Shown here piece by piece: positions 20,255 to 25,872 of a stretch of DNA of 36,629 nt. Source of the stretch: Candidatus Zixiibacteriota bacterium (GTDB lineage Bacteria > Zixibacteria > MSB-5A5 > GN15 > JAAZOE01); contig JAZGGI010000039.1 of the NCBI GenBank assembly GCA_036480375.1, forward strand, positions 1 through 36,629, read 5' to 3'. Position 1 is the stretch's first letter, and each line of letters begins with the position of its first letter. The notes beneath the pieces were generated by a model. That model saw only the letters and a program-made list of their open reading frames with translations. It searched no databases and was not told the origin of the DNA. Both the position numbers and the translations under genes were made by a program.

Positions 20255-20350
20255 AATAACAATATACAAACTTTTCCGGCGCGAGTGCCAAGCCTTTTTA
20301 CCTTGACCCAAACTAAAAAATCGACGTATTTTTTATCAGAGGTATTAATC
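20255..20350. promoter_or_regulatory. Divergent promoter region between AmmeMemoRadiSam half-operons
   Basis: This 96-base spacer lies between DUF362 (minus) and the Memo-AMMECR1 fusion (plus). TTGACC (20303-20308) and TATTTT (20327-20332) are spaced by 18 bases and could serve the plus strand, though the leader would be very short. AGAGG near 20338-20342 is the ribosome site for ATG 20351. Shared control of both sides from here is likely. Confidence 0.4.
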
Positions 20351-21814
20351 ATGAAAGTTCGTATAATCTTTGTCGGAATTATTCTCGTAATCGCATGGGG
20401 AATGGTCACGCTGGGAGCCGCAATGGATAAGTCAAATGAGGCAATAATACGCTATCCGGCCGTTTCAGGAATGTTTTATCCCTCGGACGGTGAGGATCTA
20501 CTCGAAATGGTCAATCAACATTTGGCCGAAGTCAAAGACCTGCCGGAAATCGACGGACAGATTATTGCCCTGATTGTACCGCACGCCGGAATCGAATATT
20601 CCGGCCAGATTGCCGCTTACTCTTACAAGCTTCTTGAAAATTCGAGTTTTAACAAAATCATCCTGTGCGGACCGTCGCATCGAGTGCCGTTTGACGGCAT
20701 TTCAGTTTACGGACCCGATGTAACCTGGCAAACACCCCTCGGAGACGTTATCTGCGATAATGACCTGTGCCTCCAACTTATTGAAAACAACAAATCCGTC
20801 AAATTTTCTAAGGAGGCACATAATCGCGAACACTCCCTCGAAGTCCAGCTTCCGTATTTGCAGGCCGTATTAAAAGACTTCACCCTGGTACCGGCGACCA
20901 TGGGATTTCCCGCTCCCGAAACAATCGATGCTTTGGCTGCGGCCCTGACAGATCTTGAAATGGATAAAAACACCGTTATGGTCGCCTCAACCGACTGGCA
21001 GCATCATATGTCGGCCAAAGCAGGCTGGAAATACGATTCATTGGGACTTGAATGCCTGGAAAAAATGAACCCCGATGAATTGCAAAAACTCCTGGCAGAA
21101 AAGAAAACCCAGATGTGCGGCGGCGCCCCGACGGTAGCGGTCATGAAGGCGGCTATGGCCAAAGGCGCCGATAAAGTCGAAATATTAAAATACGGCGATT
21201 CGGGAGATATCACCGGAGACAAAAGCTCTGTTGTCAGTTACGCCGCCGCGGTTTTATATAAAGCCAATGAAAACAATGAACTATCGGAGGCCGATAAAAA
21301 GAAATTATTAAAAATAGCCCGGCAGTCGATTGAAACTTATCTCGAAACCGAAACAATTCCCAAATTTGACGTTCCCGAATCTTTAAAACGCCTCGGCGCC
21401 GCTTTTGTGACGCTTGAGAAAGACCATCGTCTGCGCGGATGCATCGGCCAGACGATAGCCATCACTCCTCTTTATGAAACCGTATCGCATTGCGCCATTC
21501 AGGCGGCCGTGTCCGACCCGCGCTTTCCTCCGGTAAAAAGAGTTGAGATGAATCAGATTCATCTTGAGATTTCAGTTTTGACTCCGCTCCAAAAAGTCGA
21601 ATCTCTGGATGAAATTGAAGTCGGTCGAGACGGGCTTATGATATCAATGGGTAGAAATCGAGGCTTACTACTTCCTCAGGTAGCCACCGACTACGGCTGG
21701 GATCGCGAGACGTTTCTCAGGCAAACCTGCAAAAAAGCCGGCCTCGCACCCGACGCCTATAAATCAGCTCAAGCCGAAATATTTAAATTTCAAGCCATAA
21801 TCTTTGAAGAATAA
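20351..21814 (+). CDS. amrB-amrA: AmmeMemoRadiSam proteins B and A fused (Memo-AMMECR1), with signal peptide
   Basis: I start at ATG 20351, where AGAGG is well spaced; the GTG at 20285 is not supported. The 487-residue product has a hydrophobic signal or anchor (5-24). The Memo domain covers about 35-305, with His78 (VPHAG), His110 (GPSHR), REHSLEVQ near 159-166, DWQHH (215-219) and Cys256 (MCGGAP). These match the His/His/Cys metal site known in human MEMO1. The AMMECR1 domain follows (about 313-487) with its signature LRGCIG at 361-366. Memo and AMMECR1 are the B and A components of the AmmeMemoRadiSam system, often fused. Function is unresolved; metal- or redox-linked chemistry is the usual suggestion. 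The export signal here matches the Tat signal on the radical SAM partner. The metal transporter starts 12 bases downstream. Confidence 0.93.
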   Translation: MKVRIIFVGIILVIAWGMVTLGAAMDKSNEAIIRYPAVSGMFYPSDGEDLLEMVNQHLAEVKDLPEIDGQIIALIVPHAGIEYSGQIAAYSYKLLENSSFNKIILCGPSHRVPFDGISVYGPDVTWQTPLGDVICDNDLCLQLIENNKSVKFSKEAHNREHSLEVQLPYLQAVLKDFTLVPATMGFPAPETIDALAAALTDLEMDKNTVMVASTDWQHHMSAKAGWKYDSLGLECLEKMNPDELQKLLAEKKTQMCGGAPTVAVMKAAMAKGADKVEILKYGDSGDITGDKSSVVSYAAAVLYKANENNELSEADKKKLLKIARQSIETYLETETIPKFDVPESLKRLGAAFVTLEKDHRLRGCIGQTIAITPLYETVSHCAIQAAVSDPRFPPVKRVEMNQIHLEISVLTPLQKVESLDEIEVGRDGLMISMGRNRGLLLPQVATDYGWDRETFLRQTCKKAGLAPDAYKSAQAEIFKFQAIIFEE

Positions 21815-21825
21815 ATATATCGCAA

Positions 21826-22824
21826 ATGAATCACATGAAAGGAAAATTCGGGGAGTTTTCTAAGAAGTATCGATTACTGTGTATCATATTATCCTTATGC
21901 GTGTTTTTAATATTGGGCGGGTGCGGCAAAATATCCGAACGAAGAAATCGCGATTTATCACAAGCGGAGTCAATTAATATTTTAGCCACGACAGGTATGA
22001 TCGGCGATCTGGCAGCCCATATTGGCGGTGAACGGGTTGCCGTCTCGACTCTGATGGGCCCCGGCATCGATCCTCATTTATACAAAGCCAGCCAGCGCGA
22101 TGTGATTACACTCGCTAATGCTGATATTATATTTTTCAACGGTTTGCATCTTGAGGGAGCCATGTCCGAAGTTTTGGAACAGATGGAATCGTCTGGAATC
22201 ACCGTGGCCGTCGCCGGCAGCGTCCCGGAAGAGGAATTGCTATCGCCCGAAGAATTCTCCGGCGCTCATGACCCTCATGTCTGGTTTGATGTACAATTAT
22301 GGATCCATGCGGCCGAATCGGTCTATCGGACATTAGCAAAACTGGACTCGGCTCACGCCGAAACATATTCAAAGAATTTCGAGAGCTATCGGGCTGAGCT
22401 GGAACGACTCCACGAGTTTGTTTTGAATGAATCGGCCAAAATCCCGGAAGATGTCCGGGTTCTGATAACCGCTCATGATGCCTTTAATTATTTCGGACGC
22501 GCCTATGGTTTTGAAGTCAGGGGACTTCAGGGAATCAGCACCGCTTCGGAAGCCGGAACCGCCGATGTACAGAAACTGGCGGCGTTTATCGTTGAAAAAA
22601 AAATTCCGGCTATATTTATCGAGTCATCGGTTCCTCAACGCAATATCGAAGCGGTTCAGGCTGCCGTCGCGGCCCGTGATTTTGAGGTAGTCATCGGAGG
22701 CGAGCTATTTTCCGACTCAATGGGTGATACAAGTACTCCGGAAGGAACTTATGTCGGAATGGTCGAACACAATATAAATACAATTGTCGCAGCCTTGACC
22801 GGCTCCGGGAGCAATCCGGAATAA
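21826..22824 (+). CDS. TroA-like metal-binding lipoprotein of an ABC transporter
   Basis: The 332-residue substrate-binding protein of the cluster A-I (TroA/ZnuA/PsaA) family has a lipobox LGGC with acylated Cys33. The metal site is His84 (IDPHLYKAS), His151 (DPHVWFD), His217 (TAHDAFNYF) and Asp297 (GELFSDSMGD). The third His, with HDAF and the following GLQGISTASEAG, resembles TroA more than the Glu-containing manganese binders. There is no His-rich loop as in many ZnuA proteins. Zinc or manganese is therefore likely, and specificity cannot be settled from sequence. The gene follows Memo-AMMECR1 by 12 bases and leads the transporter genes. Confidence 0.92.
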   Translation: MNHMKGKFGEFSKKYRLLCIILSLCVFLILGGCGKISERRNRDLSQAESINILATTGMIGDLAAHIGGERVAVSTLMGPGIDPHLYKASQRDVITLANADIIFFNGLHLEGAMSEVLEQMESSGITVAVAGSVPEEELLSPEEFSGAHDPHVWFDVQLWIHAAESVYRTLAKLDSAHAETYSKNFESYRAELERLHEFVLNESAKIPEDVRVLITAHDAFNYFGRAYGFEVRGLQGISTASEAGTADVQKLAAFIVEKKIPAIFIESSVPQRNIEAVQAAVAARDFEVVIGGELFSDSMGDTSTPEGTYVGMVEHNINTIVAALTGSGSNPE

Positions 22825-22840
22825 GGGGACGGATAAATAA

Positions 22841-23602
22841 ATGAATGAAAAATTGGGTAATGAAGTTATTCCGGCTATAGATGTCGAGGACATGACCGTC
22901 GCCTATCGCGATAAGCCGGTTTTATGGGATGTTGATTTAATCGTACCGCCGGGTGTGCTCATGGCTATCGTCGGTCCCAACGGAGCCGGAAAAACAACAT
23001 TGATTAAGGCAACTTTAGGCCTTATAACTCCCGCCGCCGGACGGGTTTTGATTTATGGAAAACCGTATCCCGAGCAAAGGCAGTTGGTCGCCTATGTCCC
23101 CCAACGCGGCTCGGTTGATTGGGATTTCCCGACCACCGTACTGGATGTCGTCATGATGGGCAGGTACGGTCACCTGGGGTGGATTCGCCGTCCCGGCAAA
23201 CGTGAAAAAACCGCGGCGGAAGAAGCTCTCGAAAAAGTCGGAATGATTGACTTTGCTAACCGACAAATCAACCAACTATCGGGAGGGCAACAACAGCGAA
23301 CATTTTTAGCCCGGGCATTGGTTCAGGATGCTCGCATTTATTTCATGGATGAACCGTTTCAGGGCGTCGACGCTACGACCGAGCGAGCGATAATTCAACT
23401 GCTTCGCGAACTGAGACAATCAGGAAAAACCTTAGTCGTGGTTCATCACGACTTGCAAACCGTGCCGGAGTATTTCGATTGGGTCACGCTCCTTAACGTG
23501 CGCCGTATCGCCAGCGGACCGGTTGATGATGTCTTCACTGATGATAATTTGAGAATCGCCTACGGAGGCCGCGTCGGTTTTTTGCAGGCCATGCAAAAAT
23601 AG
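22841..23602 (+). CDS. Metal ABC transporter ATPase, TroB-like
   Basis: This 253-residue ATPase has Walker A GPNGAGKT (45-52), a Q-loop at YVPQRG, signature LSGGQ (146-150), Walker B IYFMDEP (166-172) and the switch His in VVHHD (about 202-203). The phrase [20 protein letters not shown] is typical of ATPases for zinc/manganese/iron cluster A-I importers. It starts 16 bases after the lipoprotein gene and powers the two permeases that follow. Confidence 0.95.
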
Positions 23603-23632: not shown

Positions 23633-24766
23633 TTGGACGGGATATTTTACGATCTTATTTTTGATTATACCCTGCGAACGGTCGCCCTCGGATCGGCCGT
23701 GCTGGGTTTGGTCAGCGGCGCGTTGGGATGTTTCGCCGTTTTGCGACGCCAATCGCTTATGGGTGATGCCATGTCACACGCCGCCCTTCCCGGAATTGTC
23801 ATCGCATTTATGCTGACCGGCATGAAAACGCCACTTGTATTAGTAATCGGTGCGGCCCTTGCCGGATGGCTCGGAACTCTCAAAATCATGAGTATTGTCA
23901 ACCTGACCCGGCTCAAACACGATGCCGCTATGGCCCTGGTGCTTTCCGTTTTCTTTGGTCTCGGATTAGTCTTGCTCACTTTCATTCAGAAAACGCCGGA
24001 AGCGGCCCAGGCGGGGCTTGAGAAATTCCTTTTCGGGCAGGCGGCCGCGCTCCTCGAACAAGATGTCATCATTATGGCCATAATCGGCCTGATAACCCTG
24101 ACTATTCTGATTGCCCTTTGGAAAAGATTCAAGCTCTTAAGCTTTGACGTCGAGTACGGCCAAAGTTTGGGGCTTCCGATGCGAATGCTCGATATGATTT
24201 TAACCGGCCTTCTGGTTTTGGCCATCGTCATCGGCCTGCAAACTGTCGGCGTCGTACTTATGAGCGCGATGATTGTCGCCCCCGCCGCGGCCGCCCGTCA
24301 ATGGACCGACAAATTGGGAGTGATGGTGTTCCTGGCCGCAATTTTCGGCGCGGCATCCGGTATCAGCGGCGCCGTCGTCTCCAGTACCGCCGAAAAATTA
24401 CCGACCGGTCCGACGATTGTGCTTTGTGTCAGCGCTATTGTTATTGCGTCATTACTGTTTGCTCCCAACCGAGGAATAATCTGGAGCCGGATTCGCCAGA
24501 GTAAAAATCGCCGCAAATTGCAACTCGACACGATCATCTGTGATTTGTATTCTCTGGCGTTGCAGCACGATGATTTTTCTCATGCCCATGATACGGCGAC
24601 TTTGATTGCCATGAGTCCCGGTCAGTCTGGGATAAAATTCAGCCTGGAAGAACTGGAACGCCGCGAACTCGTGAAACTCACGGAAAACAATCAATGGACG
24701 CTGACTGAAAAAGGCATTGATGAGGCCAAACTGATTAGCGCCATATTCAAAGGACAGGAAAATTGA
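23633..24766 (+). CDS. Metal ABC permease, TroC-like, with C-terminal winged-helix-like tail
   Basis: The start is TTG 23633 (MDGIFYDLIF) behind a GAGGA; no better ATG fits the family N-terminus. Residues 1 to about 280 form a typical ABC-3 permease with eight or so membrane helices, including GDAMSHAALPGIV and the conserved VGVVLMSAMIVAPAAAA. ABC-3 permeases normally end near FAPNRG (about 277). Here about 100 extra residues follow, with helical segments and the pattern FSLEELERRELVKLTENNQWTLTEKG, like a winged-helix repressor of the DtxR/MntR kind. The next gene overlaps by four bases. Confidence 0.92.
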   Translation: MDGIFYDLIFDYTLRTVALGSAVLGLVSGALGCFAVLRRQSLMGDAMSHAALPGIVIAFMLTGMKTPLVLVIGAALAGWLGTLKIMSIVNLTRLKHDAAMALVLSVFFGLGLVLLTFIQKTPEAAQAGLEKFLFGQAAALLEQDVIIMAIIGLITLTILIALWKRFKLLSFDVEYGQSLGLPMRMLDMILTGLLVLAIVIGLQTVGVVLMSAMIVAPAAAARQWTDKLGVMVFLAAIFGAASGISGAVVSSTAEKLPTGPTIVLCVSAIVIASLLFAPNRGIIWSRIRQSKNRRKLQLDTIICDLYSLALQHDDFSHAHDTATLIAMSPGQSGIKFSLEELERRELVKLTENNQWTLTEKGIDEAKLISAIFKGQEN

Positions 24767-25872
24767 ACTCATTCCAATTGGAAATACAAATGATCGCCGT
24801 CGTCGTGGCTGTCGCCTGTGCTCTTCCCGGAGTATTTCTTGTCCTGCGCCGAATGGTCCTGATGAGTGATGCCATCAGCCATGCGATCTTATTCGGAATT
24901 GTCCTGGCGTTCTTAGTGACCGGTGATATTAATTCACCTTTTTTGGTTTTGGCCGCCGCGGCCACCGGTGTTTTAACAGTCGTATTGGTTGAGTTAATCC
25001 AAAAAACGGGACTGGTCAAAGAAGATGCCTCAATCGGACTTGTTTTCCCGGCTCTGTTCAGCATCGGCGTCATCCTGATTTCCCGATTCGCCGGAAACGT
25101 CCATCTCGATGTTGATGCCGTGCTACTTGGAGAATTAGCCTTTTCACCATTTAATAGATTGGAATTTTCAGGCTATGATCTGGGTCCCAAATCACTATGG
25201 GTCATGTCGGGCATCCTGATATTGAACATCACTTTCATCATTATCTTTTTCAAAGAACTCAAACTGGCGACTTTCGATGCCGGACTGGCAACCGCCATCG
25301 GCTTTTCTCCGGTAATACTAAATTATCTTTTGATGTCATTCGTTTCGATTACCGCCGTGGGAGCTTTCGATGCTGTCGGATCGATACTCGTCGTTGCCCT
25401 TATGGTCGGACCGGCCGCGTCCGCCTATCTTCTGACCGACCGACTGGGCGTTATGCTTGTCATCAGCGCAGTACTGGGAATAATTGCCGCCATTGGCGGT
25501 TACTGGTTGGCGCATTTTCTTGACGCCTCCATCGCCGGCTCCATCGCGGTTACCACCGGTGTCATCTTCGGCCTCATATTTTCCTTCGCGCCTCATCGGG
25601 GAATCGTGGCGATTTTCAGACGACGAATGAGACAGAAATGGGAATTTGCCCAAACCATGCTGGTCATGCACATTTCGCAGCATCAGGGTACGCCGGAACA
25701 ATCCGAAGAATGCCGGACAGAGACACTATATCATCACATGCACTGGGATCAGAATTTCACCGAGCGGGTTTCGCGAATAGCTCTCAGAAATCAACTTGTA
25801 AGAGAAGAAAGCGATTGCCTGCTTTTGACTGATAACGGCCGTCAACTGGCGTCTGAAACTCTCGCGTTATAA
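24763..25872 (+). CDS. Metal ABC permease, TroD-like, with C-terminal winged-helix-like tail
   Basis: The TTG start at 24763 overlaps the previous stop (TTGA) and sits behind AGGACAGGAA. The 369-residue protein has a standard ABC-3 permease body (residues 1 to about 275: SDAISHAILFGIVLAF, VGSILVVALMVGPAASAYLL). A cytoplasmic tail of about 95 residues follows, ending FTERVSRIALRNQLVREESDCLLLTDNGRQLA, which again has winged-helix-like spacing. Having such tails on both permeases suggests the transporter senses metal or binds DNA, or that the tails are released as repressors. This is the last gene of the operon before a convergent cysteine desulfurase. Confidence 0.92.
   Translation: MNSFQLEIQMIAVVVAVACALPGVFLVLRRMVLMSDAISHAILFGIVLAFLVTGDINSPFLVLAAAATGVLTVVLVELIQKTGLVKEDASIGLVFPALFSIGVILISRFAGNVHLDVDAVLLGELAFSPFNRLEFSGYDLGPKSLWVMSGILILNITFIIIFFKELKLATFDAGLATAIGFSPVILNYLLMSFVSITAVGAFDAVGSILVVALMVGPAASAYLLTDRLGVMLVISAVLGIIAAIGGYWLAHFLDASIAGSIAVTTGVIFGLIFSFAPHRGIVAIFRRRMRQKWEFAQTMLVMHISQHQGTPEQSEECRTETLYHHMHWDQNFTERVSRIALRNQLVREESDCLLLTDNGRQLASETLAL

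Follow-up and report, generated by a model that had tools for sequence, protein, structure and literature searches.

Predicted winged-helix tails on both permeases of a divalent-metal ABC importer from Candidatus Zixiibacteriota

A four-gene importer operon with the ytgABCRD order

In Chlamydia, YtgCR is a fusion of a permease and a repressor: YtgR is cleaved from YtgC and acts as an iron-dependent repressor (PMC7755916; PMC5599777). Fusions of the YtgCR type were found in 11 phyla by their discoverers (Thompson et al. 2012), as told in a review, and the architecture 'permease plus DtxR' is already known. YtgCR-like fusions have so far been taken as built-in repressors, and there are homologous fusions whose only annotation is 'metal ABC transporter permease'. 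The solved importers PsaBC and ZnuBC share the transmembrane core of these permeases and have no tail.

The window, by which we mean the whole stretch of 36,629 nucleotides analysed, contains a four-gene operon, SBP-ATPase-permC-permD, encoding a divalent-metal ABC importer (Table 1). Both permC and permD belong to the ABC-3 family by Pfam search (PF00950). The gene order is that of ytgABCRD in Chlamydia trachomatis, and in both systems a DtxR-type winged helix follows an ABC-3 permease, the one encoded by permC in the window; in these respects the parallel to YtgCR drawn in the initial annotation is right. The span first singled out, 24470-25872, runs from the C tail onward through the whole of permD, the D tail proper being 25585-25869.

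Table 1. Coordinates of the importer genes and of the domains and motifs of the two tailed permeases
Feature	Position	Strand	Details and evidence
Metal-binding lipoprotein, ZnuA/AztC/TroA-like substrate-binding protein (SBP)	21826..22824	+	PF01297 E 1.2e-77
Mn/Fe/Zn importer ABC ATPase	22841..23602	+	PF00005 E 8.7e-30; NCBIfam Mn/Fe ATPase models
permC, whole gene	23633-24766	+	377 aa
permC transmembrane core (ABC-3)	23633..24460	+	PF00950 E 2.7e-69, residues 13-276
permC tail, predicted winged-helix domain	24458..24763	+	model residues 1-102, starting at FAPNRG; AF2, Foldseek, hhalign
C-tail H-x4-H-x-H motif (tail H37, H42, H44), between helices 1 and 2	24566..24589	+	C-tail alignment
C-tail helix-turn-helix (tail residues 46-68), without DNA-reading signature	24593..24661	+	AF2 model and conservation
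permD, whole gene	24763-25872	+	369 aa; 4-nt overlap with permC
permD transmembrane core (ABC-3)	24763..25584	+	PF00950 E 1.1e-43, residues 9-273
permD tail, predicted winged-helix domain	25585..25869	+	model residues 1-95; AF2, Foldseek, profile search
D-tail conserved H29, H33, E38, E42, H51, W54	25669..25746	+	D-tail alignment
D-tail helix-turn-helix (tail residues 48-68)	25726..25788	+	AF2 model and conservation

ABC-3 permeases had been said to end usually near the motif FAPxRG, and this is borne out by the closest solved permeases, PsaC (7kyo/7kyp, 282-290 aa) and ZnuB (9oko, 260 aa), with which the alignment ends at residues 281 and 284. The second ABC-3 permease of the genome (L058, on another contig; 287 aa) is also untailed. 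In both permC and permD of the window, about 95 residues are added past the ABC-3 core and FAPxRG.

Upstream of the importer, at 20351-21814 (+), lies a fusion gene of Memo (PF01875, E 1e-63) and AMMECR1 (PF01871, E 3e-54), whose product has a hydrophobic, signal-like N-terminal stretch. The gene is 11 nt upstream of the SBP gene and is therefore probably co-transcribed with the importer. A metal-handling role of the Memo-AMMECR1 protein is conceivable, given that human MEMO1 is known to bind both iron (PMC11081632) and copper (PMC9477392). In the relatives examined, no such gene was seen beside the importer. Just upstream of the fusion gene, at 20295-20319, an imperfect palindrome, TTTTTACCTTG-ACC-CAAACTAAAAA, forms an AT-rich candidate operator; the palindromes upstream of the relatives' DtxR genes gave no match to it.

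Fold and descent of the two tails

The input to AlphaFold2 (AF2) was one alignment for each tail, with 11 sequences for C and 10 for D, all taken from independent genomes. The C-tail model has helices at tail residues 3-37, 46-52, 59-68 and 84-101 and strands at 72-74 and 79-82 (mean pLDDT 89.4); that of the D tail has helices at 3-33, 48-52, 56-68 and 83-94 and strands at 72-75 and 78-81 (mean pLDDT 92.8). In both models, helix 1 of the tail is a single unbroken helix coming straight out of FAPxRG, and no floppy or disordered linker between core and tail was seen. Foldseek searches of the PDB returned winged helices of IdeR, DtxR, MntR and MarR type with probabilities of 0.97-1.00 and E-values of about 0.003-0.04, the level expected for so small and common a fold. 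The C tail matched those of IdeR, DtxR and MntR and the D tail those of MntR, DtxR and MarR; the rmsd to MntR/DtxR was 2.2-3.1 Å. Structure prediction, the check proposed in the initial annotation, thus gives a winged helix in both tails, with DtxR, MntR and IdeR among the best PDB fold matches, and the claim that both metal permeases end in winged-helix tails is upheld by computation.

The comparison across homologues, likewise proposed at the outset, recovered the same tails from a Bacteroidota metagenome-assembled genome (MAG) and, within the phylum, from 10-11 genomes, which rules out a read-through, a frameshift or an assembly artefact. A chance HTH-like pattern is ruled out by the confident models together with profile matches exceeding those of shuffles.

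The descent of the tails was examined with hhalign. Scores that include the shared FAPxRG segment are inflated, and the values used here were obtained after trimming FAPxRG and the linker. C tails matched the DtxR tails fused to permC at 97.8% (99.3% untrimmed), stand-alone DtxR at 93% and D tails at 87%, and the match of D tails to stand-alone DtxR was 82%; 0/100 column shuffles reached these scores. The comparison of D tails with the fused DtxR tails dropped from 95.5% with FAPxRG to 40% once it was removed, and DtxR descent of the D tail is therefore probable rather than certain. A D-tail profile search found MntR/DtxR matches at weak E-values (0.014-0.1), and searches of Pfam and NCBIfam and single-sequence searches of the PDB using the tails gave nothing decisive. 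A DtxR/MntR-type winged helix is clearly the ancestor of the C tail, which has a common source with the complete DtxR carried by permC in sister operons, and probably that of the D tail. The kinship to DtxR-type winged helices first proposed is thus firm for the C tail and weaker for the D tail, as judged by profile comparison.

Distribution of the tails and loss of repressor features

Operons of relatives with the same gene order fall into two kinds. In the 13 loci of type I, among them Pontibacter and a Flavobacteriales MAG, permC is longer by about 155 residues, PF02742 is present in 13/13 of these tails and permD is untailed, an arrangement like that of the YtgCR fusions. Type II is represented by the window and nine further genomes of the phylum, together with a Tenacibaculum MAG (Bacteroidota); here permC has the winged helix only and permD is likewise tailed wherever the contig reaches it. 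Among 132 genomes of the phylum, ten gave strong matches to the C-tail profile. The D-tail profile matched these ten and one more that is cut by a contig end, so that all genomes of the phylum with a C tail also have a D tail (10/10). In a tree of the permC core, the type I rows group together (89/84), and a second group (97/97) joins the type II rows to Rhodothermales, Deinococcus, Halomonas, Paracoccus and a single row of Veillonellaceae; the root of the tree is unreliable, with a long outgroup branch, and does not say which tail type is ancestral. Since the tail trait is clustered on this tree, the perfect association of C and D tails in the phylum represents few events and not 20 independent ones.

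The Halomonas, Paracoccus and Deinococcus relatives were found on plasmids by a search with whole permeases; a plasmid search with the C tail alone gave no match. The Paracoccus importer carries tails on both permeases. In Deinococcus the D tail is present and permC has only a short stub, so that the C-D pairing is not absolute. On Paracoccus aestuarii plasmid p190534 (L127) both permeases are annotated within one 2.1-kb frame, and a near-copy on plasmid p296221 (L128) has separate permease genes; L127 is a possible fusion or frameshift. Deinococcus plasmid importers have a very small DtxR encoded directly downstream (L129:6543-6887, 114 aa; L130:5079-5474, 131 aa), and upstream in L130 there is also another DtxR, which is full-length and carries a FeoA domain.

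Just upstream of many or most related operons a stand-alone DtxR/MntR is encoded. The tails are kept both beside such an adjacent regulator and in four type II genomes without any PF02742 protein (G000, which is the window's own, G004, G096 and G097), although most of their relatives encode one beside the importer. In the type I operons L051, L049, L050, L055, L098 and L099, two adjacent DtxR-family proteins are encoded: the stand-alone one is short and its DNA-binding domain is intact, and in the permease-fused one the metal domain is intact and the DNA-reading helix has drifted.

The metal-binding/dimerisation domain Fe_dep_repr_C (PF02742) is absent from permC, permD and the whole genome by Pfam search: this half of DtxR has been lost from the tails. 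The DtxR DNA-binding domain (PF01325) has no match in the window tails and no tail reaches its cut-off; among the 13 type I tails there is a single sub-threshold match (E 0.14), against 10/10 above cut-off for the stand-alone DtxR/MntR neighbours scanned. The signature [PS]SVTxM / LPTVTRTV, kept in these neighbours, is absent from the recognition helices of the tails. Information content of this helix is 1.83 in the C tail, 1.71 in the D tail and 1.85 in type I, compared to 2.35-2.67 in the stand-alone neighbours, where no other compared part is conserved as well, whereas in both tails it ranks among the less conserved parts. Most members have a net acidic tail once the basic linker is passed. 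The fused DtxR of type I has a highly conserved metal-binding half and a drifting DNA-reading helix, a pattern that points the same way and agrees with a non-repressor reading.

These features bear directly on a YtgR-like repressor, the idea raised in the initial annotation. In the form considered here, one or both tails, freed by proteolysis or membrane-anchored, would attach to DNA and shut down transcription of the operon in the presence of ample metal. Such a role would suit the winged-helix fold of both tails and the ytgABCRD gene order, YtgR being a proven repressor; the genome encodes no PF02742-bearing DtxR-family protein to do the job instead, and the palindrome lies upstream of the operon. 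We nevertheless consider it unlikely. The tails have no metal-sensing/dimerisation domain, the DNA-reading signature, to be compared with the DNA-binding residues suggested as a check, is absent, the recognition helix is variable in an acidic tail, and release by cleavage finds no flexible linker in the models. Regulation could come instead from the single Fur homologue encoded in the genome, and most related operons have an intact DtxR of their own.

Candidate metal ligands and roles at the transporter

Ranked by information content, a measure that favours rare residues, the most conserved positions are W80, H44, H37 and H42 in the C tail and W54, H33, H29, H51, E42, E38 and E20 in the D tail. 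Irrespective of the measure, H37, H44 and W80 are invariant outright in the 11 C-tail sequences (H42 in 9/11), as are H29, H33, E20, E38, E42 and W54 in the 10 D-tail sequences (H51 in 9/10). The conserved His positions of the C tail and the His/Glu positions of the D tail are candidate metal ligands, which the conservation suggests and does no more than suggest. Halomonas and Paracoccus have a tailed permC without the HxH motif, and Deinococcus a D tail without the His residues; the proposed metal site is therefore not universal.

Conservation of this kind makes it very improbable that the tails are a vestigial, decaying and functionless remnant of a YtgCR-type fusion. A remnant would explain that, of the two domains in the fused DtxR tails, the C tail matches the first and lacks the second. 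It would not account for residues that stay invariant in 11 divergent sequences from two phyla, nor for a second tail on permD and the strict co-retention of both. In addition, the clade containing type II (97/97) spans several phyla and is therefore probably old or widely transferred.

Winged helices frequently serve in protein-protein contact, and FeoC is itself a small winged-helix protein. The tails might accordingly be structural or stability domains without metal sensing, docking on each other or on the ATPases and assembling or protecting the transporter in a FeoC-like manner. The invariant W80 and W54 and the long helices continuous from FAPxRG are consistent with this, and FeoC protects the iron transporter FeoB from FtsH (PMC10710835). 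By itself, however, such a role does not account for the presence of His and Glu at the best conserved positions, and we regard it as possible but rather doubtful.

The explanation we prefer, while giving it only an even chance, is that the tails no longer serve in transcription and instead provide post-translational regulation of the importer, probably metal-sensing trans-inhibition. Importer-fused regulatory domains and substrate- or metal-dependent trans-inhibition are established in metal transport (PMC10710835). The heterodimer of the two permeases would hold the two winged helices adjacent to each other on the cytoplasmic side, at the ends of the last transmembrane helices, and would thereby do the job of the DtxR dimerisation domain. 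Either the conserved His/Glu of the tails would capture incoming metal (Mn/Fe/Zn), or the tails would make contact with the ATPase; at high cytoplasmic metal import would be slowed or stopped, metal closing or unloading the transporter. Whereas fold and descent follow from the models and profile comparisons, this function at the transporter is one that we infer. The 'paired sensor' built into the transporter, as first suggested, is plausible and the best reading, because conserved His are found in both tails and Glu also in that of permD. Classic trans-inhibition domains (MetNI, ModBC) are on the ATPase rather than the permease; this counts against trans-inhibition, as do a metal site that is not universal and a pairing that is not absolute. 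A literature search on trans-inhibition of ZnuBC found nothing relevant.

In its full form, which we put forward tentatively, a DtxR-derived fold would have been recruited twice in one importer, once per permease, would have lost its DNA-binding role and would now be a paired cytoplasmic metal sensor switching the importer off. If this is true, the sister operons would represent an intermediate step, a tethered DtxR with a drifting DNA-reading helix and a metal site that is retained. As the fused winged helices of both types are without the DNA-reading signature, homologous fusions may be transporter-level metal sensors and not repressors. A general question is thereby made testable, namely whether ABC-3 metal importers have a built-in off-switch. 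The winged-helix-only version, which bears His motifs and occurs on both subunits and in several phyla, has no model in Pfam or NCBIfam that recognises it, and no description of it was found in the literature searched, which is not proof of its being undescribed.

Compared to YtgCR, in which YtgR has a metal-coordinating DtxR domain and is cleaved off, the window tails have no metal/dimer domain, and permD is tailed as well. Stand-alone MntR, IdeR and DtxR share the winged-helix fold and a weak profile similarity with the tails, but the tails have neither PF01325 nor PF02742, and their recognition helix is not conserved. The Deinococcus plasmid importers (D. deserti, D. peraridilitoris) belong to the same importer clade, and the winged-helix-like tail of their permD, of about 85 aa, shares with the window D tail the conserved Trp before the third helix; unlike in the window, permC ends in a short stub, the D tail is without the His pair and a separate small DtxR is encoded just downstream in 2/3 loci. 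Finally, the type I operons of the phylum, Pontibacter and Flavobacteriales are homologous to that of the window, and in profile alignment the window C tail covers the first of the two domains in their fused DtxR; they differ from it by their longer, PF02742-containing tail without H-x4-H-x-H motif and by their untailed permD.
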